In this document: positions 20,720 through 53,319 of the stretch, in pieces | Layout of the letters: each line of letters starts with the position of its first letter | How positions within the stretch are numbered: the stretch's first letter is position 1 | Source: Desulfobulbaceae bacterium | GTDB lineage: Bacteria; Desulfobacterota; Desulfobulbia; Desulfobulbales; Desulfobulbaceae | Assembly (NCBI GenBank): GCA_011391865.1 | Contig: JAABPV010000009.1 | Span: 1-53,319 of the forward strand | Direction of reading: 5' to 3' | DNA length: 53,319 bases | Notes under the pieces: generated by a model | The model's input: the letters and a program-made list of their open reading frames with translations, nothing else | What the model was told of the DNA's origin: nothing | Databases searched by the model: none | Program-made: the position numbers and the translations under genes

Positions 20720-23152
20720 TCAATCGCTGATAGGAGATTGGCGGTCGCACTCCAGCATCTTCCCGTCTGTCCCGCAAGTCACTGTTCCCTGCTCTCTGGT
20801 GATCAGCACCGGGATCTTCCGCTCCTGCCAGATGGCGCGGTTGACCGCCGCCGGAAAATGCTCCTGCCGAGCCGATCTTCCTGCCGAGACCACGATCAGT
20901 TCTGGATGCGCTGCGGTCAGAAACCCTTCGCCTGTTGAAGTGCGGCTGCCGTGATGGGCGGCCAGTAGCACATCCGCCTGCATGTCCGCGCCTTGCTGAA
21001 GGAGCACGTTTTCACTTTGTTTGCCGATGTCGCCGGGCAGAAGAAATGTCCGCCGTCCGTGCCGATAATGCAGCACCAGCGCGGCCTCGTTGACATCGTC
21101 TCCCGGCGGCTTGCCGCGCAGCACGGTCAGAGTAAAATCTTTCCCTTGCGCAATCGGCTGGCCTGATTGCGGAATCCGCACCTGCACGCCCTGCGTTGCT
21201 GCCTGCTCAAGAATCTGCTGATAATTCTCCTCCCGGTGCGCGTCGCCGTTGATCCAAAGGATTTTTGGTTTGAAATGGCGGAGAATGAAATCCATGCCGC
21301 TGAAGTGGTCGCGGTGCGGATGGCTAATCAGCACCTGATCAAGCCGCCAGACGCGCTGGCTCCAGAGATAGGGCGCGATGACCTGCTCGCCGATGTTCCT
21401 CTTGCCGCTGCTGCCTGCGTCGGCAAGAATGCGCGAGCCGTCGGGCAGATGGAGAAAGGCGGATGAGCCTTGCCCGACATCGAGGAAGGCGATTGCGCTC
21501 GTGCCCGGCTGCGGCGGAAACCACAGTCCCCACGTGAAATGCAGCATCAGCAGCGCGGCCCCGATGAGGGCTGTCTGCCGACAGCGAAGGCTCCAAAGCA
21601 GCAGCACGATGCCATACCAAACAATTTCCGTCAAACTCGGACTGATCGTCCAGAGCGAAGCACAGGGCAGCAGGCTGGCCAGCTCGTTGCAGCGCAGGCC
21701 CGCCCAGATGCCGAGGCTGCCGATCTTCAGCAAAAACACTGCTGCGGGCGGATAAATGAAGAGGCAGAGAATCGCTGCCAAGCCCAACGGCAAGGCCCAG
21801 AGACAGAGCAGCGGCTCGACAATCAAATTCAGCAGCGGGCCGAGCAGCGGCAGGCGGTGAAAATGGAAAAGCAGGAACGGCAGCGTGCCCAAGGTCGCAG
21901 CGATGGAAACCAGCAGCGCGGAAAAAAGATACCGGCCTACCTTGATGAGCGTTTTTGGCGGCTCATCGCTTTCGGTGACGGGCGGCACGATCTGCGGCAG
22001 GAAAAGAATCAGGGCGGCCGTCGCGCTAAAAGAAAGCTGAAACGAGGCGGTGAAGAGCGAAAGCGGATTGCAGGCCAGCACCAGCAAGGCTGCGGCGGCC
22101 AGCAGATGCAGCATGTCGTGCCGCCTGCGCAGGATGAGTGCGGCCAAGAGTGCTGCTGCCATGAGCATCGCCCGCAGCACCGGCGTATTCAGCCCGGCGA
22201 TGAAGCCGTACAGCAGCAGCAGCGGCAGGGTGCCGAGCAGGGCCAGCGTCGGCACATGCGTGCGCAGCAGCAGCCATTCCGAACGCCGGAGCAGCCAGTT
22301 GAGCATCAGGCCGCTCATCAGGCCGAGCAGGCTCATGTGCAGGCCGGAAACCGAAAGGATGTGCATGGTGCCCGCAGCGCGGAACTGCTCCTGAATCTCT
22401 GGCGACACAGCGGCTTGGCTGCCGATGAGCAGGGCCTGATACACGCCCGCCAGCTCCGGGCTGAGGTGCTGGCGGAGAAAACGGCCCGTCTCCTGCCGCA
22501 GCTGCTCCGGCAGCCAGCGCAGGCTCGGCGGGTCTTGGCTGTCGAGCAGGAGCACGTCCGCCCGCCCGTCAATCCAGCCGCTCAGATAAATGCCTTTAGC
22601 CGCCAGATGGCTCTGATAGTCAAACGCGCCCGGCGTTTTGAAGCTCTCCGGCGGGCCGACTTTAGCCAAGAGCATCAGCGTGATGCCGGGCCGCAGATCG
22701 TCCGCTTTGCCGAGCATGGCCAGCCGCACCCCCCCGCGCACCGCCCGCCACGTTTTATCCAGCAGCACCTCTTCCGCCTCCAGCTCAAAGCGGGAGATGA
22801 CTTCGCCGTCCTGCTCGCTCTCCTCAATCATGCTCGCCAGCGTGCCGACAAGCGTGACGCGCCGCTCCTCCTTGGTGAGCAAGGCCGCGAGCTGCCCGGC
22901 GGCGTGCGGTTTTGCCAAATGATGGAGCAGATGCAGGTGTCCGGTCAGGAAGAAAATGGGCAGACTGAGGAGCAGGGCGTGGCGGTGATGAAGGAAAAGC
23001 GCGGCAATCGCCAGCAGGACAAGGGCAATGACCGCTGTCTGCTCCGGCAGAAGCTGCGTTTGGCCCGCGCTGATGCCGAGGATAAAGCAAACCGTGACCG
23101 GCAGGAGGATGTTGCGCTCGCACCAGCGGAGGGCTGCTGCCGGGGAGGGCAT
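20720..23152 (-). CDS. comEC: ComEC/Rec2 DNA-uptake channel
   Basis: 810 residues, normal length. N-terminal hydrophobic segments and a DUF4131-like domain (residues ~30-220), the competence membrane domain with AAGTMHILSVSGLHMSLLGL (H-x-x-S-x-S-G-x-H) and many transmembrane helices (~230-530), and a C-terminal metallo-beta-lactamase-like domain with AFLDVGQGSSAF and the H-x-H-x-D-H motif HPHRDHFSGMD (611-621). It forms the inner-membrane channel for transforming DNA, with a nuclease-like domain. Natural uptake would fit the many duplications and integrations in this window. Confidence 0.92.
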   Translation of the reverse strand: MPSPAAALRWCERNILLPVTVCFILGISAGQTQLLPEQTAVIALVLLAIAALFLHHRHALLLSLPIFFLTGHLHLLHHLAKPHAAGQLAALLTKEERRVTLVGTLASMIEESEQDGEVISRFELEAEEVLLDKTWRAVRGGVRLAMLGKADDLRPGITLMLLAKVGPPESFKTPGAFDYQSHLAAKGIYLSGWIDGRADVLLLDSQDPPSLRWLPEQLRQETGRFLRQHLSPELAGVYQALLIGSQAAVSPEIQEQFRAAGTMHILSVSGLHMSLLGLMSGLMLNWLLRRSEWLLLRTHVPTLALLGTLPLLLLYGFIAGLNTPVLRAMLMAAALLAALILRRRHDMLHLLAAAALLVLACNPLSLFTASFQLSFSATAALILFLPQIVPPVTESDEPPKTLIKVGRYLFSALLVSIAATLGTLPFLLFHFHRLPLLGPLLNLIVEPLLCLWALPLGLAAILCLFIYPPAAVFLLKIGSLGIWAGLRCNELASLLPCASLWTISPSLTEIVWYGIVLLLWSLRCRQTALIGAALLMLHFTWGLWFPPQPGTSAIAFLDVGQGSSAFLHLPDGSRILADAGSSGKRNIGEQVIAPYLWSQRVWRLDQVLISHPHRDHFSGMDFILRHFKPKILWINGDAHREENYQQILEQAATQGVQVRIPQSGQPIAQGKDFTLTVLRGKPPGDDVNEAALVLHYRHGRRTFLLPGDIGKQSENVLLQQGADMQADVLLAAHHGSRTSTGEGFLTAAHPELIVVSAGRSARQEHFPAAVNRAIWQERKIPVLITREQGTVTCGTDGKMLECDRQSPISD

Positions 23153-31933: not shown

Positions 31934-32121
31934 ACCCGGCAGCGGCGGGTTTACCGTTCCGAAGCGTTCGGGTTACTAATCCCGAAGCGAATTCATCGCC
32001 CGATGAATTGCAAATGGGATACTAATCCCGAAGCGGATTCTACGCCCGATGAATTCCTTTTGGGATGAGTAACCCGCAGAGAATTCATCGCCCGTAGAAT
32101 TGAAAATGGGATTCCCGTCCC
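31934..32121. repeat. Eight or nine palindromes on an exact 23-bp pitch
   Basis: Palindrome centres: 31942 (ACCCG/CGGGT), 31976.5 (GGGTTACTAATCCC), 31999.5 (AATTCATCG-CC-CGATGAATT), 32022.5 (GGGATACTAATCCC), 32045.5, 32068.5 (GGGATGAGTAACCC), 32091.5 and 32114.5. From 31976.5 on, spacing is 23.0 bp each time. Two palindrome types alternate (G-G-G...C-C-C and A-A-T-T-C...G-A-A-T-T), giving a 46-bp superunit at 31970, 32016, 32062 and 32108. Arms vary in compensating ways (GATGAATT vs TAGAATT), keeping symmetry. Confidence 0.85.
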
Positions 32122-32149
32122 GGCTGCGGCGGAACGGGAATCCTTTTTT
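32108..32149 (+). terminator. Intrinsic terminator / last palindrome of the array
   Basis: GGATTCCCGT pairs with ACGGGAATCC across a 15-base loop, followed by six T on the plus strand. On the minus strand the stem is followed by CATTTTC, so it may also stop the short genes read leftward. Its stem is almost the same sequence as the terminator at 33618-33660. Confidence 0.65.
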
Positions 32150-32199
32150 GGCAGGAACGGCGGATGCGGCGGCAGGCGGAACGCAGTCCGGCCCGCGCC

Positions 32200-32337
32200 C
32201 TACCGGCCTTTCTTGGAAGGGGTCATCGGCTTGGGCGGCGGCGGCGCAACATAGCCTCCGGCCTTGCCTTTTTTCTGTCGGCCAGGCGACGGGGTCGGTC
32301 GCGGCGGCGTTGCTGCGGGCGGTTTTTTCTCGCTCAT
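32200..32337 (-). CDS. Very small Pro/Lys-rich protein
   Basis: 45 residues from an ATG with a strong AAGGAG ribosome binding site (8 bases away). Sequence MSEKKPPAATPPRPTPSP...GYVAPPPPKPMTPSKKGR is disordered and very rich in Pro and Lys. No hydrophobic segment, so it is probably cytoplasmic and could bind nucleic acid or act as a linker peptide. The strong start and absence of any other frame support a real gene. Confidence 0.6.
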   Translation of the reverse strand: MSEKKPPAATPPRPTPSPGRQKKGKAGGYVAPPPPKPMTPSKKGR

Positions 32338-32456
32338 ATCATGCTCCTTGTGGTTGATGAGATGCTCCGGCGGCGCGGATACTGCGTTCAACTATACGCC
32401 AACTGCGGCAAACCGCAAGCAAATTGGCGGCTGCGGCTGTTGCGGCCATGCGCTGA

Positions 32457-32627
32457 TCAGGCTGCCGCGTGGAACGCCTCGTGGAAGCTAATCTCGCTCT
32501 GTGGCATATCCCGGTCAAAGGAGAGCGCGCTGATCTCCAATTCCGCAAAGGCCGTTTTGATCAGCGCGGCAATGGCGGTGATGCCGACTTTAGTCTGGTG
32601 TCCGATGATGATCGTTTTTGGTGTCAT
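32457..32627 (-). CDS. Possible 56-residue protein
   Basis: Frame from ATG 32627 to TGA: MTPKTIIIGHQTKVGITAIA...FDRDMPQSEISFHEAFHAAA. It is amphipathic with a hydrophobic first half and acidic second half. No clear ribosome binding site. It is the only open stretch in this gap and runs on the same strand as the Pro/Lys-rich gene, but it may be chance. Confidence 0.35.
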   Translation of the reverse strand: MTPKTIIIGHQTKVGITAIAALIKTAFAELEISALSFDRDMPQSEISFHEAFHAAA

Positions 32628-32683
32628 TGCTGTCGCAGATGCTTAGTTGAGAATGTGTCTCATTATTATTGCTCGTTTTTATA

Positions 32684-32726
32684 TTGACATATTTCAAGCA
32701 CCATGTTATGGGTTATGTACCATAAC
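32684..32726 (+). promoter_or_regulatory. Promoter with overlapping inverted repeat
   Basis: TTGACA at 32684-32689 with a weak TATGGG 17 bp later. GTTATGG (32705-32711) and CCATAAC (32720-32726) form a perfect 7-bp inverted repeat over the -10/start region, as expected for a repressor operator. It precedes the exported protein gene at 32774. Confidence 0.5.
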
Positions 32727-32773
32727 GAAGATGCTGTATCTTTGTCACCAAAAAAACTGGAGGAAATGTCAAA

Positions 32774-33586
32774 ATGAAGAAGTTTATGTGCGCAGCTGCC
32801 GGGTTAGGTGTCGTGTCTTTTGCGGCGGTGTCGGCCTCGGCCGCAACCCCTTCCGCGAAATTTGCCGCCACGTGGACGACAAAGCCAGGACTGGCATCAG
32901 TGGTGAACATTTCTGATGCCACAGCAGATGCTGTCAAGGTTGACAGCAAAACCGGCTACACTTTGGCGACCATCAAAGTGCCGCAGGACAAAGAGCTGCT
33001 GATCGGTGTTTCTGCGGAAATCGGCTTGGTGACTGAAACCGCAGTGAAAGGCAAGAATGGCGGCACAGCGACATCCACTGCTGACGGCGAAGCCTACATC
33101 ACAGTGTATGCTGTTCCTCGTGAAGGCGGCGACAGCACTGAAGCGGCTCCAGGAAAGGTCATGCTCTCCAAGCGGGTTCAGGCATTGACCGCTACCTTGG
33201 GCGGCGTGATTCAGAGCTGCCAAGTGAGCTGCGCGGAAAATCCGGATTCCGGGCTAATAGTGTGCGAGGACATTGTGATCGCTGAAGACTGCGTGGTCAC
33301 AGACGAGCAGATCGGCCTGCTGCAAGACACCACCGCCGCGCATCACTTCAATTTTGTCCTGCCGAACATGAAGCAGGGCGTGTACGACATCAAAGCTGTG
33401 TTCACCACCGGCGCACGTGCTGCTGTTGACATCTGCGACGAAGGCGAGGCGTGCAGCTTTGATCCTGAAGGAACAGTCGCCGCCAGCGCAAACACAAAAG
33501 CCGTGATCAACAAAACCATGCTGACCGTGCAGCAGGTTCGCGCCGCAAAAGACGGCTTGCAGGAGATGGACATCATCCCGCAGTAA
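32774..33586 (+). CDS. Exported protein of unknown function
   Basis: 270 residues with GGAGG 9 bases before the ATG and a clear signal peptide (MKKFMCAAAGLGVVSFAAVSASA). The mature part is beta-rich with Ala, Thr, Val and six Cys (SCQVSC, VCED, EDCV, ICDEGEAC), spaced for disulfides, so it probably folds in the periplasm or outside. No family recognised. It stands alone: own promoter upstream, intrinsic terminator downstream, suggesting high, separately controlled expression. Confidence 0.82.
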   Translation: MKKFMCAAAGLGVVSFAAVSASAATPSAKFAATWTTKPGLASVVNISDATADAVKVDSKTGYTLATIKVPQDKELLIGVSAEIGLVTETAVKGKNGGTATSTADGEAYITVYAVPREGGDSTEAAPGKVMLSKRVQALTATLGGVIQSCQVSCAENPDSGLIVCEDIVIAEDCVVTDEQIGLLQDTTAAHHFNFVLPNMKQGVYDIKAVFTTGARAAVDICDEGEACSFDPEGTVAASANTKAVINKTMLTVQQVRAAKDGLQEMDIIPQ

Positions 33587-33617
33587 CATTGCTGACAGCA
33601 TTGCCCTTCCTGCCGCG

Positions 33618-33660
33618 AAAGGATTCCCGTTCTGACACACAAGGAACGGGAATCCTTTTT
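33618..33660 (+). terminator. Intrinsic terminator of the exported protein gene
   Basis: GGATTCCCGTTC and GAACGGGAATCC pair over 12 bp around an 11-base loop, followed by five T, 31 bases after the stop codon. Confidence 0.85.
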
Positions 33661-33763
33661 GCAATTCATAAGGCAGTCTTCCTGCCGCCTGATAAGCATT
33701 GGCCGCAACGAGAGGTGCAAATCGCATATATTTTGATTGATAACAAACTATTGAGCGCATCTT

Positions 33764-34602
33764 TCCCTCACTCCACCCGCCGACACACATCCTCCGCCTG
33801 CTGCATCTGCGCATCCAGCCGCTTCTCTGACACCGGGAAAGCCGTGCCCATCTCCGGGGCGAAGACCGAAACCCTGAACTCTTCCACCATCCGTCGGCAC
33901 AGCCTGATCTCCTCCCTGCAAGCAGCACAGCGCGGCCCGGCATTGCGGCGTTCCAGCTCACGCAGCCGCTCGACGACGGGCTGCACCCGCTTGGCTTTCT
34001 CCTCATCTTTCAGCGGCGCGTGCTCGGCCCGCTCTATCCGCTTGGCAAGGGCCAGCAGCCAGCGTCTGCGCTCGCCCGCCTCGTCCAGCCGCAGCCTGCT
34101 GAGAAAGTCCTGCGGCAGCAGCTCCTCCATCAGCCGTTGATACTCGACAAAACGGGGCGACGCGCCGCAGCCCGCCTTGCTGCTGCGCTGTCTGCTCTGG
34201 GCAAGGACAGCCTGCGTCTGCCGCCGGGCCGCAAGCAGCTCAATGATTTGATTCAGCAACGCCTTTGCCGGTTTGAGCAACCCTTGCGGCTTCAGAGTAG
34301 CGAGCACGGCTGCAAACTGCGTCTTGCTCGGCGAGGCATCTGTCGTGTCCAACTGAAAAAGCCGGTCAAGAATGCCGTTGAGCAGCAGGCTCTTGGTCTC
34401 CGCCGCAGTTGCCTTCAGGCCGAGCGCGAGCCACGAAGCGGTCTGACTTGCCACTGCTGCCTTGCAGTCCTTGCCGAGTGCCGGGATATCGCCAGGGAAC
34501 TGAAGACCGTAGAGGAAACGCAGGCCCTCGCGGTTGCGCTGCGCGGCCTGCTCCGGGTCGGCAATATAGCGGAGAGCCACGCTCTGCGCCTGGCCGTTTT
34601 TC
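33764..34602 (-). pseudogene. 5'-truncated second copy of the hrpA 3' end
   Basis: About 840 bp nearly identical to 38519-39358, coding for the last ~280 residues of HrpA (NGQAQSVALRYIADPE ... AEDVCRRVE and the same stop). By eye about 14 residues differ, so the copies have diverged. Similarity ends abruptly at both sides: a few bases past the stop, and at 34602 inside the coding part. There is no start codon or helicase domain, so it is not functional as a helicase. Confidence 0.9.
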
Positions 34603-34647
34603 TCCGAAAATGCGTAAGGAGTTGCGCGAGTCTTGCTCGACAATGCT

Positions 34648-37600
34648 CTATGATGTCTTACAAAAAGGATAACGTGTTAGAATCTCCTCAATACTTCCGA
34701 CACGAGTATTTGCCAGAGCATCTATTTTCGCATACTGCATAGGAACAATACCGCTGCAAACCAAACATGATACAATGTTCGGCTCTGACACCTCGGTGAA
34801 ACGCTGTATCTTGTCAAGGTTCTCTTGAAGGAGTGCAACCCTGTCGAGATGCCTTTTCAATTTATCCCGCTTGCCGTTTGAGTCCGTGCTTCCCTGATAT
34901 TCTGAAAGCAGAGCGGCAATCTCTGAATAATTTCTTGCCAACGACAAGTCTTTGCATTCAATCACCAAGATGTCTTTGTGGCCTGTCCGCCAAGCAAGCA
35001 CATCAACATCGCCGAAATCTCCTTCGATTTTTCGATCCTTACGATTGAGAAGCTCAGGCAGTCCGATATTCTCATGAACGTGCCATCCAGCTTGCTGTAA
35101 TTTCTTTGCAACCTCTGCGTTAAAGGTGTGCCCTTCCCGTGCTTTCCCCCACCAAGCATCACGCATTTCTGTCGTGCGGAAGAAATCCTGCTCGAAGTTT
35201 CCGTTATAGGCACCATCGAACACGTAAACAAAACCTATTCGCAGTGCATTAGGAGCAATGATCAGCAGCGGGTCATCACTGTCATCTGTTTTGAGAAAGG
35301 GGCGGGTGACAAATGACAGCCGACGGCCATAACGCCAAGGATAGATGTCTTTGAGACTGAAGCCTTTGGGCAGTTTATCCCAACGAGGTCTGGGTGAGAG
35401 TGAAAACTGATCAAGGAACTTTCCGGCAACATCTTCTGAAACTCCCTCGGAGGAAAGAAGTTTCAGGTATTCGCTCTGCTTCATCGTGAAGATTGCGGCA
35501 TTATCCTTTATGCCTTTGTCTTCAAGCACATCGATGACAGAACGGGCTTCGTCTATCTCAAAGCCCATCTCGATTTTCCAAGCCTCTAAGAAATCCCCAT
35601 TTAACCCCTTTTGCGCTTCAGGATAAATTTCAGGTTCTTCATAATTTTTCTTTTGCAACGGAGCGTTGGCAATAAACCCGTCTCCCGTATGCCGAGTCAA
35701 CATAGGCTTAACTACTGCCTGACCAAATTCATTCTGAAAGAGAATGTCTCCCAGAGGAGAAATTGTAAGCTCTGGTGGAAGGGCATTGTAGTAAATTGCA
35801 TCAGAGAGACCGCCTATACGCGCCAGCAACGCTGCCCGCGCAATCAACTTGCTCAACTCAATGTCTGATATTTTGGCACCACCTTCAACCGGACAAACAC
35901 ACAACGCAATCTCGATCAAAATACGGCTGGCAAGATTAGCTCCGGCAAACTTGTCCATCTGCTCGACATAACGTTCAACAGTACCTTGCTCATTGCCATA
36001 TAAACCGAGAAGAGCTGCGGATGTTTGTTTCCACTGTCTTTTCTCCGCATTCGCTTTCTCGCAATTGGCGACAAGTCGGTTTAGTACTGCAAGTCTGTTG
36101 AATGGCTTGAGTGCTTCAAATGTATCGGCAAGCAGAACATCAACGACCTTTCCAAGGAAACGAGTGCAGGTTTCTTTGCCTTTGATCGTATTGTCTTGGC
36201 CTTTTTCAAGGACACGCCAGCCAAGACCAATTTTCACCGCCGCATCATCAACTGGATCAATTTCGATGACTTTTTTTGGCAGAGTGTCTCGAACAAAATC
36301 AATAAATTCTCGCGCCTGAAAAAAATGGAGACTGCGTGCATCATCGTTGGGAACAACGAGGTGTTCAATTTCTTCTGCTTCACACTCACAATCCTTTGCA
36401 CCGAGAATATGTAAATAAGCCTGTGTTAGAGTGCGAACAAAGAGCCGCTCAACAACATTCTCGGCAATGCGGCAGCCATCCAGAATCGTTGTCTGAAAAA
36501 CCGCTTTGCAGGCATTAGGTTCGCTATGAAATTCGATTCTGCAAAGTGGAACCAGCTCATCAATAGATGGCTTTTCTGTCCATCCATCTTCTGGATCATT
36601 GCCAATAAACTCAATATAAACTTTAAGAGGGTGCTTTACTGATAAAAATTCTGTTCGTTTATCCAAAGCATTGCCGATACGGGGCAGCCACTCCCTCGCC
36701 ATTTCCCAAAGCTGATATCTGTGTCCATTGTTGGAAATACCGGGTGCGGCAACAGAGAACCAAAGTTTGAGCGATCCTTCATATAACGCCGTAATATTTT
36801 TGCGTTGAAGCATGTCATCAAGGGAGACATAAACGCGCCTGGAAGTTTCGTTGCTGAAAAATGGATTCGGCGATTCATGCTGGACAATGTGCCACTTGCC
36901 GGTGTTGTCAGCCATGCAGTGACGATCATAACCCTGATCTGAATCAGCGCGCACTTCCCGCAGAAGGTTTAACGGCGGACAAAGACGCAAGGGACGTTCC
37001 GGCGAAATCTCGCCCTCCGGCAGTTGGGCATGCGGGACGAAATGTCCATCATTTTTCCGAATCCAGCCGATCAGATTCAATATCCCATTAAGATTGAAAA
37101 TTTTGACTCCAGCCTTTTCGATAGTTTCCAGCCCGTCTTGAATCCGCCAAAAGTAACCGGGCTTCATATCTGCAAGCCAACTCAGCCGCACAAGGTCGGC
37201 TGCGGACATACTTTGAAAACGCCAATGCGGATGATTCAAACTTGCACCTGGAATGCCATAACCTCTCCCCCATCCGCAACCGACCAGAACAATGAGTCCG
37301 CTCTTGAACCCTTCCTGATTTCTAAACTTTTCAACAACATCATTAAGTTGCGATTGCAAGAGTTCTCCTATGGAACCTTCATCTTGGTAGTAGCCTTTAA
37401 ATCCGCCATTAAGATGTGTTTGCACTGATGGTAAAACTAGATGGAACGATATAAAATATCCTTCGTCAATCCGGACGACAAAGTTTGATAGTTTACATCC
37501 ATCTAATTGCATCCAATAAACCGGTGCTTGATTCATTCTGCCGAGCAAGGGCGTATCAAAGAAGAGTTCAGAATATTTCTGCGCAAGTACTTCATCGAAA

Positions 37601-38472
37601 GATGAAGAAAATCCAAGCCTGATAATATGTTCGATCACATAATCGCGCACAGCAACCGATAACGCTGTGGGAAGCGCAACAGTCAGATGCTTCGCATCAT
37701 GCGCAATCAGCGGACAACGATTTAACAGGCTGAGTTTAACTTCCTGCGCTGGTAATTCCTTGCGTATCTGCGGATGCAAGATAAATGGCTTGATGTCATC
37801 AAAGCTAATGCCGTGTTCTTCAAGTTCAGCAAAGCTAATTTTTACACGAGAAATTAGAGCATTGCGTCGTGGAAGCATCCGCGATGATAAAACCGAGTGC
37901 AGCTCCTCGGAGCCAAGCTGATAACGTTGCAGTCCAGATTTTTCACAGACCATATCCGAGATAATCAGCAATGCCCGGATACTTCTTTTGATTTCCCAAT
38001 ATCGTCCGGTGTCAGGCATCGTGGCCATTACATCCAGCACTCGTTGCGTATAAAATCCAGCAGATTCCCAAATCCCTTCTATGAGCCGATAGTCTCCGTT
38101 GCTGTCATATACGAGAGAGACAAAAACATCTTCAGCCGGATCCTCACCCGATACGCATTTCGACTGTCCGATCAGAGAAAACCAGCGGATTGCTTCGGCA
38201 ATATTTGCCTTTTTTCTGCCGCGACAGTGGACGACGGCTAAAGCAACGAGGATTTCAAGACGAATGCAATTGGATTGATATTCTGGGACAGTCAGGAGAC
38301 TTGCAAGAAGGGGGACGGCAACGGCAGGATCATATCTGGCAAGATCACGGACGAGTGATTTGTTCGCCTTTGCAACTTCTTCAAGGGTTACAGCTTGATT
38401 AGCCCAGTGCATGTTTTCGGCAAACAAGGCATTTAATCGCTCCATATCTGATTCACTGAATTCTTCAGGCAT
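34648..38472 (-). CDS. Giant protein with C-terminal PD-(D/E)XK nuclease, candidate defence gene
   Basis: 1274 residues. The first ~1100 match no family I recognise: mostly helical, no transmembrane segment, no Walker motif seen. The last ~120 residues carry a restriction-endonuclease-like core: GDVDVLAW (Asp1155, Asp1157) and ILVIECKD (Glu1172, Lys1174), the D...E-x-K of the Mrr/PD-(D/E)XK clan. Composition is AT-richer than hrpA. It lies alone, 50 bp downstream of intact hrpA and followed by the truncated hrpA copy, so it sits on an integrated segment. A role against phage or plasmid DNA is inferred from the nuclease motif and mobility. Confidence 0.8.
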   Translation of the reverse strand: MPEEFSESDMERLNALFAENMHWANQAVTLEEVAKANKSLVRDLARYDPAVAVPLLASLLTVPEYQSNCIRLEILVALAVVHCRGRKKANIAEAIRWFSLIGQSKCVSGEDPAEDVFVSLVYDSNGDYRLIEGIWESAGFYTQRVLDVMATMPDTGRYWEIKRSIRALLIISDMVCEKSGLQRYQLGSEELHSVLSSRMLPRRNALISRVKISFAELEEHGISFDDIKPFILHPQIRKELPAQEVKLSLLNRCPLIAHDAKHLTVALPTALSVAVRDYVIEHIIRLGFSSSFDEVLAQKYSELFFDTPLLGRMNQAPVYWMQLDGCKLSNFVVRIDEGYFISFHLVLPSVQTHLNGGFKGYYQDEGSIGELLQSQLNDVVEKFRNQEGFKSGLIVLVGCGWGRGYGIPGASLNHPHWRFQSMSAADLVRLSWLADMKPGYFWRIQDGLETIEKAGVKIFNLNGILNLIGWIRKNDGHFVPHAQLPEGEISPERPLRLCPPLNLLREVRADSDQGYDRHCMADNTGKWHIVQHESPNPFFSNETSRRVYVSLDDMLQRKNITALYEGSLKLWFSVAAPGISNNGHRYQLWEMAREWLPRIGNALDKRTEFLSVKHPLKVYIEFIGNDPEDGWTEKPSIDELVPLCRIEFHSEPNACKAVFQTTILDGCRIAENVVERLFVRTLTQAYLHILGAKDCECEAEEIEHLVVPNDDARSLHFFQAREFIDFVRDTLPKKVIEIDPVDDAAVKIGLGWRVLEKGQDNTIKGKETCTRFLGKVVDVLLADTFEALKPFNRLAVLNRLVANCEKANAEKRQWKQTSAALLGLYGNEQGTVERYVEQMDKFAGANLASRILIEIALCVCPVEGGAKISDIELSKLIARAALLARIGGLSDAIYYNALPPELTISPLGDILFQNEFGQAVVKPMLTRHTGDGFIANAPLQKKNYEEPEIYPEAQKGLNGDFLEAWKIEMGFEIDEARSVIDVLEDKGIKDNAAIFTMKQSEYLKLLSSEGVSEDVAGKFLDQFSLSPRPRWDKLPKGFSLKDIYPWRYGRRLSFVTRPFLKTDDSDDPLLIIAPNALRIGFVYVFDGAYNGNFEQDFFRTTEMRDAWWGKAREGHTFNAEVAKKLQQAGWHVHENIGLPELLNRKDRKIEGDFGDVDVLAWRTGHKDILVIECKDLSLARNYSEIAALLSEYQGSTDSNGKRDKLKRHLDRVALLQENLDKIQRFTEVSEPNIVSCLVCSGIVPMQYAKIDALANTRVGSIEEILTRYPFCKTS

Positions 38473-38518
38473 TTCTTAATCCTTTTGGCAATTGATTGAT
38501 TCCATGATGATTCATTTC

Positions 38519-39358
38519 CCCCTCACTCCACCCTCCGACACACATCCTCGGCCTGCTGCATCTGCGCATCCAGCCGCTTCTCTGAGACCGGGAAGGCCGT
38601 GCCCATCTCCGGGGCGAAGACCGAGACCCTGAACTCTTCCACCATCCGCCGGCACAGCCTGATCTCCTCCCTGCAAGCAGGGCAGCGCGGCCCGGCATTG
38701 CGCCGTTCCAGCTCGCGCAGCCGCTCGATGAAGGGCTGAACCCGCTTGGCTTTTTCCTCATCTTTCAACGGCGCGTGCTCGGCCCGCTCAATCCGCTTGG
38801 CAAGGGCGAGCAGCCAACGTCTGCGCTCGCCCGCCTCATCCAGCCGCAGCCTGCTGAGAAAATCCTGCGGCAGCAGCTCCTCCATCAGCCGCTGATACTC
38901 GGCAAAACGGGGCGATGCACCGCAGCCAGCCTTGCTGCTGCGCTGTCGGCTTTGGGCAAGGACCGCCTGCGTCTGCCGCCTCGCTGCGAGCAGCTCAATG
39001 ATTTGATTCAGCAACGCCTTTGCCGGTTTGAGCAGCCCTTGTGCCTTCAAATCAGCGAGCACGGCTGCGAACTGCGCTTTGCTCGGCAAAGCATCTGTCG
39101 TATCCAGCTGAAAGAGCCGGTCAAGGATGCCGTTCAGCAGCAGGCTTTTCGTCTCCGCCGCAGTTGCTTTCAGGCCGAGCGCGAGCCACGAAGCGGTCTG
39201 GCCAGCTACTGCCGCCTTGCAGTCCTTGCCGATGGCCGGGATATCGCCGGGGAACTGAAGACCGTAGAGGAAACGCAGGCCCTCGCGGCAGCACTTTGCG
39301 GCCAGCTCCGGGTCGGCAATGTAGCGGAGAGCCACGCTCTGCGCCTGGCCGTTCTTCT
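38519..39358 (-). repeat. hrpA 3' segment, duplicate of 33764-34602
   Basis: Direct repeat partner, offset 4755 bp, same orientation. It forms the end of the intact hrpA. Together the two copies bracket the 1274-residue nuclease gene. Confidence 0.9.
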
Positions 39359-42350
39359 CTTCGATCTCCAAAGCGGGATGGTAGAGCGCGGTGATCCGGC
39401 TGGAGCTGTCTTTCACCGCGATGGGCTGCGGCGGTTCGGCAAACTCCCATGTTCTCATGCCGGTGGTGCTGGGCAGGCGTGGCGCATCCGCTGCCGCGCC
39501 GCCCTTGCTTGCCGTTGCGACAGGCCGCGTGCAGTGCTCGGCCAGCTCTTGGAAGTTGCGGCTGCAATGAATGGTCTTGCCCTGTTCGTCGCAAAGCCGG
39601 AAGCGCATCCGCAGATGCGGCGGCAGGCCGTCAAGCTGCCAGTCGGAGCGGCTGACCGTGACCTGAAAGCGGCGGAGGATGGCCTGCTCCAAGGCCGGGT
39701 AGAGCGAACCCTGATACAGGTTGAGGCTGTCCATCAGCTTGTCCACTGCGTCCGGCAGGGGCACAAGGCGGCGGCGCAGCGTTTTCGGCAGACTGCGCAG
39801 CAGGGCAAGCACCTTGTCCTCCAGCAGGCCAGGCACTAACCACTCAAACAGGGCCGAGGGCAGGGCCGCGCAGCAGGAGACCGGCACATCCACGGTCACG
39901 CCGTCGTCCTCCTGCCCCGGCTGGAAGCAGTAGCGCAGGCGGAGGCTGCCTTGCGGCGTTTGCAGGCTTTCCGGGAAGCGGTATAAATCTTGACTATCCG
40001 GCTGGTTGCGGCAGATGTCCTCCTCGCGCATCCGCAGCAGGCTGTCCGCCTCCTGCCCGTGCTCGCGCTGCTGCTGGCGGAGAAAGCGGTTGAGGGTGAA
40101 GCGGTCATAGACCAGGCCGAGCCGCTGCTCGTAGAAATCGTGCAAGGCTTGATCATCAGCAAGAAAACCCCGGCGGCGCAGGCGTTCCTCCAGCTCTTCC
40201 AAGTGGCGGAGCAAGTCGAGGTTGTGCTTGAGAAATGGGTAGTTGCCCTCCAGCTCACCAGCCAGGAGCGCGTCGCGGATGAAGATGGCCTTTGCCTCCT
40301 CCGCAGCCTGCGCACTGAGCCTGCCGTAATTCACCTTGCGACCCGCCGCGATAACCAAGCCAAAGAGCGTCACCCGCTCAAAGGCCGTGACCTGCGCCGC
40401 CTTCTTCTCCCAGTGCGGGTCAGAGTACGACCGCTTGCACAAATCCCCGCCCAGCCGCTCCAGCCAAGCCACGTCAATGGTCGCGGCCATGCGGGCAAAG
40501 AGCTGCGAGGTCTGGATGAAGTCAACCGCCACAATCCACTCGCCGCCCTTGCTGTATAAGCACGAGCCGGGGAAGAGCACTGCCTCGCGCCCGCCGCTGA
40601 TCAAGTAGGTGTTCTTCTCCTTGCGCTGGGCAATGTTGCGGAGGAAGCCAGCCGTGACCGCCTGATGCACCGCCTCTGGCGGGCCGGGCGCACGGTCAGG
40701 GCTGCTCAATTGCTCCAGAGCCGCCTTGAACTCATCGTGCTGACCAAGGATGCGCAGGATTTGCTCGTGGATGTCGAACCACTCGCGCATCCGCTGCCAC
40801 GAGCAGAAGTTGGTGGCGCAGAAGCGGCGGAGTTCGCCCGATGTAGGGGCGGTTCGCGAACTGCCCCTACACCCATCCCACAGTTTAACCAGCGTCAGCA
40901 GATCAGACCCCGGATGAACAAACACCCGTTGCGCCTGCCGTGCCTTCTCCTGCTTGTCCGGCGGCTGCACACGCGGGTCTTGAATGGCAAGTGCGGCGGC
41001 AATGATGGCTGTCTCGCGCAGCACGCCCAGCTCCGCGCCTTCAATGATCATCCGGGAGATGCGCGGGTCAAGGGGCAGGCGGGCCATGATCTTGCCGCGT
41101 GCGGTGAGCTGGTGCTCTTCGGTGAGCGCGTCCAGCTCACGCAGGGTGCGGTAGCCCTCGCTGATTGCCTGCGGCGCAGGAGGATCGAGAAAGGGAAAGA
41201 CGCGGGGATCAGGCAGATGCAGGGCGGTCATCTGCAAGATGACCTCAGCCAGATTGGAGCGCAGTATCTCCGGCAGAGTGAACTCAGGCCGCGAGAGGTA
41301 ATCCTCCTCGCTGTAAAGCCGGATGCAGAGGCCCGGCCCCACACGACCGCAGCGGCCTTTGCGCTGGTCGCAGCTCGCCCGCGAAACCCGCGCCACGGGC
41401 AGGCTGGTCGTGCCTGCGCGGACATTATAGCGGGCAATGCGGGCCAGGCCGGTGTCTATCACCGTCTCAATGCCCGGCACGGTTATCGAGGTCTCGGCCA
41501 CGTTGGTGGCGACGATGATCTTGCGCTGCTGGGCAGGCAGGAAGATGCGCCGCTGCTCGCCTCCTTGCAGGCGGCCAAAGAGCGGCAGGACAAGTGCTTT
41601 GCCCTCGAACTGCCGTTTCAGCGCGTCCGTGGTGTCGAGGATGTCGCGCTCGGTGGGCATAAAGACTAGGATGTCGCCGCCGGGCCTGCTCATCAGGCCG
41701 CGCACCTGCTCAATCACCAGCTCGTCAATGTCGCGGTCTGGCTCGTCTTCCTCCTCCGCGCCGCTGCCGAGCGGACGGTATTCCACGCGCACCGGATAGC
41801 TGCGGCCCTCAACCTGCACCACCGGCGCGTCGTTGAAGTGCCGACTGAACTTCTCGGTGTCTATGGTGGCGGATGAGATGAGCAGCTTGAGGTCAGGCCG
41901 CTTGTCCAGCAATTGGTGCAGGTAGCCGAGGAGGAAGTCTATGTTCAGGCTGCGCTCGTGCGCTTCGTCAATGATCAGCGTGTCATAACGGCGCAAGGTG
42001 CGGTCGCCCTGTGTCTCGGCCAGCAGCACGCCATCGGTCATGAACTTGATCCGGGTCTGCGCGCTGGTGCGGTCGCTGAAGCGGATCTTGTAGCCAACCA
42101 GCTCGGCGGCAGCCAGCTCCTCCTGCACCCGCTCGGCCACGGACACCGCCGCAATCCGGCGCGGCTGGGTGCAGCCAATCAGCTTGCCGTCCGCTGCCCG
42201 GCCTGCTTCCAAGCACATCTTGGGCAGTTGTGTCGTCTTGCCGGAGCCGGTATCGCCAGCGACTACCACGACTTGGTGCTGCTGAATCGCCCGGATGATC
42301 TCGTCTTTGGCGGCGGTGATGGGAAGCTGAGGTGGGTAGTTTATGCGCAT
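38523..42350 (-). CDS. hrpA: ATP-dependent RNA helicase HrpA
   Basis: 1275 residues from ATG 42350 (a TTG 28 codons upstream is possible; neither has a clear Shine-Dalgarno). DEAH-box helicase: Walker A GDTGSGKTT (32-40), TQPRRIAA, DEAH (128-131), SSATID, then the helicase C, HA2 and OB-fold parts and the long C-terminal DUF3418 region typical of bacterial HrpA. It unwinds RNA and is linked to mRNA processing and stalled-ribosome rescue. Odd points: a palindrome inserted in frame at 40843-40870 and the duplicated 3' end downstream. Confidence 0.93.
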   Translation of the reverse strand: MRINYPPQLPITAAKDEIIRAIQQHQVVVVAGDTGSGKTTQLPKMCLEAGRAADGKLIGCTQPRRIAAVSVAERVQEELAAAELVGYKIRFSDRTSAQTRIKFMTDGVLLAETQGDRTLRRYDTLIIDEAHERSLNIDFLLGYLHQLLDKRPDLKLLISSATIDTEKFSRHFNDAPVVQVEGRSYPVRVEYRPLGSGAEEEDEPDRDIDELVIEQVRGLMSRPGGDILVFMPTERDILDTTDALKRQFEGKALVLPLFGRLQGGEQRRIFLPAQQRKIIVATNVAETSITVPGIETVIDTGLARIARYNVRAGTTSLPVARVSRASCDQRKGRCGRVGPGLCIRLYSEEDYLSRPEFTLPEILRSNLAEVILQMTALHLPDPRVFPFLDPPAPQAISEGYRTLRELDALTEEHQLTARGKIMARLPLDPRISRMIIEGAELGVLRETAIIAAALAIQDPRVQPPDKQEKARQAQRVFVHPGSDLLTLVKLWDGCRGSSRTAPTSGELRRFCATNFCSWQRMREWFDIHEQILRILGQHDEFKAALEQLSSPDRAPGPPEAVHQAVTAGFLRNIAQRKEKNTYLISGGREAVLFPGSCLYSKGGEWIVAVDFIQTSQLFARMAATIDVAWLERLGGDLCKRSYSDPHWEKKAAQVTAFERVTLFGLVIAAGRKVNYGRLSAQAAEEAKAIFIRDALLAGELEGNYPFLKHNLDLLRHLEELEERLRRRGFLADDQALHDFYEQRLGLVYDRFTLNRFLRQQQREHGQEADSLLRMREEDICRNQPDSQDLYRFPESLQTPQGSLRLRYCFQPGQEDDGVTVDVPVSCCAALPSALFEWLVPGLLEDKVLALLRSLPKTLRRRLVPLPDAVDKLMDSLNLYQGSLYPALEQAILRRFQVTVSRSDWQLDGLPPHLRMRFRLCDEQGKTIHCSRNFQELAEHCTRPVATASKGGAAADAPRLPSTTGMRTWEFAEPPQPIAVKDSSSRITALYHPALEIEEKNGQAQSVALRYIADPELAAKCCREGLRFLYGLQFPGDIPAIGKDCKAAVAGQTASWLALGLKATAAETKSLLLNGILDRLFQLDTTDALPSKAQFAAVLADLKAQGLLKPAKALLNQIIELLAARRQTQAVLAQSRQRSSKAGCGASPRFAEYQRLMEELLPQDFLSRLRLDEAGERRRWLLALAKRIERAEHAPLKDEEKAKRVQPFIERLRELERRNAGPRCPACREEIRLCRRMVEEFRVSVFAPEMGTAFPVSEKRLDAQMQQAEDVCRRVE
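40843..40870. repeat. REP-like palindrome inside hrpA
   Basis: GTAGGGGC ... GTTCGCGAAC-like centre ... GCCCCTAC: a 28-bp palindrome with a single mismatch. In frame it adds residues C-R-G-S-S-R-T-A-P-T between KLWDG and SGELRRFC, where HrpA relatives run straight on. It looks like an inserted repetitive palindrome that the protein tolerates. Confidence 0.7.
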
Positions 42351-42492
42351 GATGCAGGTCGGATTGAGCTGGTTGAGGCGGTAGCTGGGCTGCGATGACG
42401 CTGCCACTATACGGCGTTCCGGGGAAGGAGGCAAAGAGAATGCGTTATACAGATTGTCCTTGCCTGTCGGTTCTCATGCAAGCACACTTTGA

Positions 42493-42521
42493 TTGCGTTT
42501 CCAGCTGCGGCCTGCTATCAT
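42493..42521 (+). promoter_or_regulatory. Candidate hicAB promoter
   Basis: TTGCGT (42493-42498), 17-bp spacer, TATCAT (42516-42521). Transcription would start almost at the hicA ATG (42528), giving a leaderless message, consistent with the absence of a Shine-Dalgarno before hicA. Confidence 0.4.
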
Positions 42522-42527
42522 GCAAAC

Positions 42528-42782
42528 ATGAAAGCAAAGCACCGGAAGACCTTGACCGTCATCTTTGCCGAACCAGTCAACGGCAACATCGAATGGGAGA
42601 AAATAGAAACGCTCTTCATTGCCTTGGGCTGCCGGGTAATTGAAGGTGCAGGCTCAAGCGTCACTTTTGAACGGGACGGCATCAGGGCGTATTTTCACCG
42701 GCCTCATCCGGCCAAGGCAGCATTGCGCTACCGCATCAAAGATGCCCGCGACTTTCTGATCAAATTGGGAGAAAAACCATGA
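42528..42782 (+). CDS. hicA: HicA mRNA-interferase toxin
   Basis: 84 residues from MKAKHRKTL; an upstream extension to 42489 has no support. The double-stranded-RNA-binding-like fold of HicA is clear: KTLTVIFAEPVNGNIEWEKIETLFIALGCRVIEGAGS (usually D/N-I-x-W...E...G-x-G-S), then HRPHPAKAALRYRIKDARDFL with the conserved His. It cleaves mRNA in the cytoplasm and is neutralised by HicB. It overlaps hicB by four bases (ATGA). Confidence 0.9.
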   Translation: MKAKHRKTLTVIFAEPVNGNIEWEKIETLFIALGCRVIEGAGSSVTFERDGIRAYFHRPHPAKAALRYRIKDARDFLIKLGEKP

Positions 42783-45768: not shown

Positions 45769-46845
45769 ATGGCAACCATCCAATGGCGGCCCGAAGTCAA
45801 CGCCCTCACCACGCCCCAGTCCTACCGCGCCCGCGTCCTGCCCAGAAATGTGATTGGCAACGACGAGCTGGCCGCCGAGATCGCGGCGGAGCTGGATGTC
45901 ATCAGCCCGGATGTCGCCCGCTTGGTCATCACCACGGAAAAAAAGCTGATTGCCAAGCACTTGGCCAACGGCGACCAGGTGACGCAGGAGGACGCATTGA
46001 CCTACAGCCTGTCGCTGACCGCCAAATTAGACAGTCCCGACGACCCGCTACCGGACGAGGATGACATGCTGAAGGTGCGCATCTACGCCTCCAAGCCTTT
46101 CATCGCCGAGGTGCGGCAAGGGGCCAAGCTGGAACGCCTGCCTTTAGCCGAGAAGGTGCCGGTGATCGCCTCTGCTGAGGACAACCGGCTCAAACTCGCT
46201 GATGTCCTGTTCGCGCAGGGCGTGCTCAAGCTGACCGGCAGCAATCTCTTCTTTGATGAGACCGAGGAAAGCGGCGAATGCGTGATCGAGGGGACGCAGA
46301 GCGGGAGGACGGTGCAGAACCAGTACGCCATGATCTCCAACTCCGCGATTCTGCTGGTGCCCAATATCCCGGCGCAGGCCCATCCGTGGAACAATGAATA
46401 CACGGTCTCGGTCAGCACGCACTACACCGAGCACGGCACGCCGCGCAGCGGCACCTACCGCCGACGGCTGCGCTCGCCGCTGACTGTGCCCGGCCTCGGC
46501 AGCCCCAATCCGCCAGGTACCGGCATCCTTACGGGCAGCAGTGCCTTCGCGCATGTCAGCATCAACGGCGGCTTGACCAGCGCGGACACCTTGCTGCGCA
46601 TCCAAGTCATCCTCGATCTGCAAGGCGGGCGGCTGCTGTTCTCTTTGCTGGACATGCAGGAAGGCGGCGCGGCAGGCGCAGAGGTGATCGTGCCGCAGAA
46701 CGGGGAATACATTCTGCCGGGCTTTGCCAGTTCTCCTGTGACCAGCGTCGAGATCACCGTGAACAACTACGCCGCTCTGTGGGACATGATCCGCAATGAC
46801 TACGGCGGCAGGCTGGTGGATGTGCTGGATGTGAGGGTGGCGTAG
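45769..46845 (+). CDS. HU-like/DUF4469-type DNA-binding protein
   Basis: 358 residues with GGAGAACGATC before the ATG. MATIQWRPEVNALTTPQSYRARVLPRN plus DVARLVITTEKKLIAKHLANGDQVTQEDALTYSLSLTAKLDSPDDPLP fits the HU-like N-terminal domain of bacterial DUF4469/'DNA-binding domain-containing' proteins, followed by ~230 residues of beta-rich sequence (carboxy-terminal domain). Function is not established for the family; nucleic-acid binding is the likely activity. A helicase fragment starts right after its stop. Confidence 0.75.
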   Translation: MATIQWRPEVNALTTPQSYRARVLPRNVIGNDELAAEIAAELDVISPDVARLVITTEKKLIAKHLANGDQVTQEDALTYSLSLTAKLDSPDDPLPDEDDMLKVRIYASKPFIAEVRQGAKLERLPLAEKVPVIASAEDNRLKLADVLFAQGVLKLTGSNLFFDETEESGECVIEGTQSGRTVQNQYAMISNSAILLVPNIPAQAHPWNNEYTVSVSTHYTEHGTPRSGTYRRRLRSPLTVPGLGSPNPPGTGILTGSSAFAHVSINGGLTSADTLLRIQVILDLQGGRLLFSLLDMQEGGAAGAEVIVPQNGEYILPGFASSPVTSVEITVNNYAALWDMIRNDYGGRLVDVLDVRVA

Positions 46846-52979: not shown

Positions 52980-53249
52980 GTTGTCTTCCTTTTTCCTTGT
53001 GAGTTGATATGGCTGGCGCACACACTATCATGCTGTCAGTGCCATATTGCTATTGTCTTCCAGAAAAAACAAGCAGTTTTCTCATCTGCGCAGTGTTTGG
53101 CCGTGCCGCATTTTGCGAGCAACCATTTGCCCGTCATGTGCGCAACCACTTGCTCATCACACGAGCAAGTGGTTGCTCATAGGAGTTACGCAGTTAGTTT
53201 TTTAACTTGTTGATTTTGTTAAACTGGTGATTTGTAGCACTGCGTGGAT
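52980..53249. other. Intergenic region upstream of the FG-GAP gene
   Basis: Contains the third 23-bp palindrome array. Downstream of it a T-rich stretch with TTGTTGATTTTGTTAA leads to the transposase end. No gene seen. Confidence 0.45.
53117..53185. repeat. Three palindromes on an exact 23-bp pitch
   Basis: GAGCAACCATTTGCCC (53117), GCGCAACCACTTGCTC (53140) and GAGCAAGTGGTTGCTC (53163) have centres at 53124.5, 53147.5 and 53170.5. The arms differ from the other arrays, but the pitch is the same. A weaker unit may precede at 53094. Confidence 0.8.
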
Positions 53250-53319
53250 TCAAGTTCCAAGTGCAATTTTTTGGCAAGTTCCCAAGAATAGCTTTTTTGG
53301 CGTGTTGAAGCCAAGAGAT
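53250..53319 (-). mobile_element. 3' end of an IS30-like transposase, cut by the window edge
   Basis: The minus-strand frame open to the edge ends LGFNTPKKLFLGTCQKIALGT and TGA. IS30-family transposases end with a similar L-G-F-x-T-P-x-x-x-F...A-L-x-T pattern. After the stop, the sequence ACTTGAATCCACG resembles the ends of such elements. Too short to be certain. Confidence 0.45.

Follow-up and report, generated by a model that had tools for sequence, protein, structure and literature searches.

The upx-like anti-phage gene of this Desulfobulbaceae bacterium lies between an intact hrpA gene and a second, 5'-truncated copy of the hrpA end. The locus is a recombination scar of an already known kind, and its sequences support entry of the gene by recombination through hrpA. 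On balance, we think that this scar was probably left by linear DNA from a congener that was imported through hrpA with one homologous and one illegitimate joint. The window, the whole stretch of 53,319 nucleotides that was analysed, is a contig of a draft assembly, and its structure is read from that assembly.

The order on the minus strand is intact hrpA, a 1274-residue upx-like open reading frame and the 5'-truncated hrpA tail, just as the preliminary description had given it. The intact gene (38523–42434, minus strand) encodes a DEAH-box RNA helicase (TIGR01967 HrpA, 1221 bits; Pfam DUF3418, HA2 and DEAD); its open reading frame opens at a TTG at 42434, and translation more likely starts at the ATG of residue 29 (about 42350). 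A HicA-like toxin gene (PF07927) is found just upstream of hrpA, on the opposite strand, at 42489–42782. A 50-nt spacer (38473–38522, minus strand) separates the hrpA stop codon from the start of the upx-like gene (34648–38472, minus strand), and a 37-nt joint (34611–34647, minus strand) connects the upx stop codon to the onset of hrpA homology in the truncated copy. This copy, tail A (33768–34610, minus strand), runs from codon ~1024 to the stop codon and matches TIGR01967 positions 1034–1284. Its duplication partner, tail B, is the final 843 nt of the intact gene (38523–39365, minus strand).

The alignment of tails A and B spans 843 nt and contains 72 mismatches but no indel, giving an identity of 92% in nucleotides and 94% in protein; the earlier estimate by eye of about 14 differences in ~280 residues was slightly low. 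Chance is excluded as the source of this likeness (E = 0 when the organism's own genome was searched), and the same genome contains no further copy of the tail. The homology has sharp edges: it starts at ~codon 1024 of hrpA and ceases no more than ~10 nt from the stop codon, which the two copies share and beyond which their flanks differ. The reading frame of tail A is still open, and its 843 nt contain neither a stop codon nor an indel despite 8% divergence. No counterpart of the 37-nt joint was seen in a by-eye search downstream of two other upx genes.

Several further repeats are present in the window. The region 31969–33667 is repeat-rich, with 65-nt inverted arms at 32097–32161 and 33603–33667 (78%) enclosing a 270-aa open reading frame that has no Pfam or PADLOC match, and the segment 32167–32434 recurs on another contig of the genome (92%) and in the congener G003 (86–92%). 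A 358-aa gene at 45769–46845, with no Pfam match, is one of more than 10 related copies in the genome, and more are found in congeners. The contig ends in a ~77-nt repeat (53240–53319), found with 91–100% identity at many other places in the genome and in the congener G001, often at contig ends, and this repeat probably broke the assembly.

The gene between the two tails had been described as a giant nuclease gene. It does carry a nuclease-type motif, a C-terminal PD-(D/E)XK-type arrangement of D1157 and E1172-C-K1174 in which D1157, E1172 and K1174 are invariant in four homologues, and it is more than that, since it matches Upx, a known single-gene anti-phage family (PADLOC PDLC02221; NCBIfam NF042954), over its full length. 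The PADLOC model aligns from 1 to 1269 of its 1271 positions with residues 1–1265 of the gene (1750.9 bits). The score against NF042954, 'anti-phage protein Upx', is 1805.2 bits and falls below the naming cut-off of 1900, and we therefore call the gene Upx-like and do not use the NCBI name. Like the family, it is a single intact gene with a conserved C-terminal ExK motif; judged by this homology, it is a probable anti-phage nuclease gene. Its G+C content is 46% (GC3 43%), whereas both hrpA tails have the host-like value of 64%.

Genes of this family are rare in the group, with two carriers among 257 genomes in the class and two in a sample of 395 from the phylum. The upx of the other carrier in the class (G035) is 76% identical to that of the window and also has a G+C content of 46%; it lies far from hrpA and adjoins a short gene, judged by eye to be similar to those of REP-type transposases. 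A single scan of genome contigs for Upx gave one homologue (69%), on a short contig. The flanks of a homologue in an Anaerolineales MAG contig (L060, 61–120 and 4100–4240) resemble integron attC sites by eye, and this homologue may be a gene cassette. Upx had no match in IMG/VR or in the phage collection, and its matches in plasmids are partial, at no more than 45% identity, with none covering 80% of the gene. In the window, the upx-like gene is the only long gene between the tails, with no integrase, transposase or other recombinase in the insert, and a by-eye look for transposon ends around it found no convincing inverted repeat.

The flanks beyond the shared stop codon indicate which of the two junctions is the older. 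The 16 nt past the stop codon of tail A, GGGAAAGATGCGCTCA (33752–33767, minus strand), agree at 15 of 16 positions with GGGGAAGATGCGCTCA, the sequence behind the single-copy hrpA of G001, and GATGCGCTCA, their ten-base core, is found at one place in the 53 kb window. The corresponding 16 nt of the spacer behind the intact hrpA, GGGGGAAATGAATCAT, agree with G001 at 8 of 16. The comparison is with a congener, and the window and G001 diverge past ~16 nt; behind its hrpA, G001 carries a DUF4145 gene. The 15/16 agreement places the ancestral downstream junction of hrpA behind the truncated tail, and the upx-like gene together with one tail's length of hrpA would have been inserted ahead of it. The preliminary description had expected that hrpA would run directly into the flank of the truncated tail where the nuclease gene is lacking and, as far as the data allow, this is the arrangement of G001. 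The congener G003 was also considered as an empty site and set aside: its assembly (L055; 92% complete) is without hrpA, and its synteny with the left flank of the window breaks at ~31.85 kb. Two less complete congeners likewise lack the gene, which is thus absent from the assemblies of three of the four congeners, and either gene loss or an unbinned contig may be the cause.

The divergence between the tails accumulated under selection at the protein level. They differ by 53 silent and 19 replacement changes (dS 0.31, dN 0.031, omega 0.10). With G001 as the sole and distant outgroup (dS about 1.05), 34 changes are polarised to tail A, and 14 of these are replacements, compared with a fraction of 0.705 expected for an unconstrained copy (P = 0.0004); for all A/B changes being neutral, P = 1.4e-14. 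Replacements make up a somewhat larger share of the changes in the truncated copy than in the intact one (14/34 vs 4/24; Fisher P = 0.08), as expected if tail A recently lost its function. The excess of silent changes indicates that most of the divergence arose while both tails belonged to working genes in separate lineages. These patterns bear on another account, in which the end of hrpA was duplicated in tandem within one genome, upx was inserted between the two copies and the broken one then decayed. That account would agree with tails A and B being each other's closest relatives among the genomes compared, but replacements are too few for an unconstrained copy, 843 nt at 8% divergence have stayed free of stops and indels, and two tails are found in no other relative examined except G021, a member of a closely related genus. 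We consider such a duplication highly improbable, and on the substitution pattern we reject self-duplication followed by decay of the broken copy.

A related donor, as the preliminary description had proposed, is supported both by the substitution pattern and by the 92% identity of the tails, which falls inside the range of identities found when this genome is compared with its nearest congeners (84–94% with G003, 79–90% with G002). Identity in the congener range, together with the contrast between host-like tails and a lower-G+C gene, points to a close relative as donor and to upx as older foreign DNA. The immediate donor would most likely be a congeneric species in which upx was already positioned behind hrpA, and upx itself appears to have been derived earlier from a source of lower G+C. 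No potential donor, with upx immediately behind hrpA, turned up among 257 genomes of the class. The preliminary description had also set its reading against tails that are each other's closest relatives everywhere; in the window they literally are, given that no closer genome was compared, and in the second case, described next, they are not.

Among the other hrpA loci of the family that were examined, a second tail next to hrpA occurs only in that of G021. The order there runs from hrpA through an ATPase–DUF4276 gene pair matching HEC-01, a 71-nt hrpA stub ending at the hrpA stop codon and a further gene to a second, truncated HEC-01 copy; the two HEC-01-like copies behind hrpA (L037, 6970–11430) are 84% identical. 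In G029, hrpA is followed by HEC-01 without a stub, and this unit matches hrpA and the first HEC-01 pair of G021 continuously, with 88% identity over 2.8 kb, while the sequence behind the G021 stub matches that behind hrpA in G101. The stub differs from the intact tail of its own genome at 11 of 71 sites and from the tails of all seven other species of the genus at 7–10; with so few sites, the comparison is supportive but not conclusive alone. The G021 locus has the appearance of a G101-type tail in front of which a G029-type end has been grafted. The HEC-01 loci of G021, G029 and G101 resemble the window in having candidate defence genes in the place occupied by upx, and in G021 an hrpA stub likewise follows such genes; they differ in that the genes are not upx and in that the G021 stub is 71 nt long, compared with 843 nt in the window.

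Two further explanations are constrained by this second case. Site-specific integration at the hrpA 3' end, by an element that brings its own substitute for the gene end, like prophage e14 at icd, would give the same topology, would use a gene 3' end as its site and would agree with hrpA having been hit twice. It nevertheless has little to recommend it, because a recombinase is not present in the insert, the breakpoints differ (codon ~1024 in the window, 71 nt before the stop codon in G021) and the shared 843 nt far exceed the usual attachment cores. Equally hard to credit is an assembly artefact, in which the hrpA alleles of two strains were chimerically joined. The draft consists of 87 contigs and the tails do differ as alleles of two strains would; however, the joint at 34611–34647 shares no repeat with hrpA that could have misled the assembler, the estimated contamination is 0.23%, and a comparable arrangement was assembled independently in G021.

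For the import through hrpA that we favour, a congeneric DNA fragment with an upx-like gene already directly behind hrpA would have entered the lineage and paired with the resident hrpA upstream in the gene by ordinary homologous recombination, and its other end would have been joined to the resident hrpA in mid-gene, at codon ~1024, with no real homology at the joint. The outcome would be an intact resident hrpA with a donor 3' part, followed by upx, with the resident's own tail and the ancestral downstream sequence remaining behind as a scar. At one end of the insert, the non-homologous 37-nt joint adjoins the abrupt end of hrpA homology at codon ~1024, as this sequence of events would give. 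On the other side, an intact, in-frame hrpA leads into upx. Entry of the DNA by uptake is possible, since comEC, the DNA uptake channel gene, does lie in the same window (20720–23152, minus strand; PF03772, E = 2.8e-61), as had been pointed out, and dprA is found elsewhere in the genome in a search that also matches controls such as E. coli; neither gene proves competence.

The preliminary description had instead proposed that a circular DNA with the gene and a 3' piece of hrpA had integrated through one crossover; homologous recombination of this kind, in the shared tail, could also excise it again. Import through hrpA is supported, but the circle is not established, and a linear fragment gives the same product: direct repeats around the insert and an ancestral flank following the distal copy are also expected without a circle. 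A circle with one crossover and a linear fragment with two unlike joints end in the same gene order, and the window fits both equally. The topology is an exact fit to a circle, and the 843-nt repeat, with identical runs of up to 46 nt, is long enough for homologous recombination. However, the insert holds no plasmid, phage or circle functions, the phage and plasmid searches described above lend the circle no support, and the 71-nt stub of G021 is short for such a crossover. Mismatches per 140 nt along the tail (16, 15, 16, 9, 10 and 6) give no sharp shift in identity that would mark a crossover, although this is a weak test. We regard a circle as possible but doubtful, and prefer the linear route because it works without a circle and is compatible with stubs of any length, even one of 71 nt.

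The linear route resembles homology-facilitated illegitimate recombination, described for natural transformation in PMC3240628 and work cited there, in having one homologous and one illegitimate end and in bringing in adjacent foreign DNA; the window case differs in being read from sequence alone. Exchange via core genes that flank variable regions is documented more broadly (PMC5635113) and shares with these loci the lack of mobile-element genes, a conserved anchor gene and variable cargo (upx, HEC-01 and the DUF4145 gene), but that model has two homologous flanks and would leave no duplicated gene end.

A survey of 88 downstream open reading frames from up to 54 hrpA loci of the family gave HEC-01-type matches in two members and Pycsar-cyclase-like matches, which reflect a generic cyclase domain, in two members, the rest having mostly housekeeping-type domains. 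These generic cyclase matches aside, defence-type matches behind hrpA are limited to the closely related genus, with HEC-01. This survey does not support hrpA as a family-wide defence hotspot, and any hotspot in its 3' region would be local, confined to two related genera. Under either the circular or the linear route, recombination between the 843-nt direct repeats could delete upx. We suggest, tentatively, that in this lineage the hrpA 3' end may be a repeated landing site at which incoming DNA, using a housekeeping gene as its anchor, swaps defence genes without mobile-element machinery, the leftover tails recording the swaps and allowing loss. How lone defence genes spread without such machinery is a live question, and leftover tails of an anchor gene offer a readable record of single transfer events, with a simple signature (an intact gene, a defence gene and a truncated copy of the first gene's end) that can be scanned for in any genome collection.
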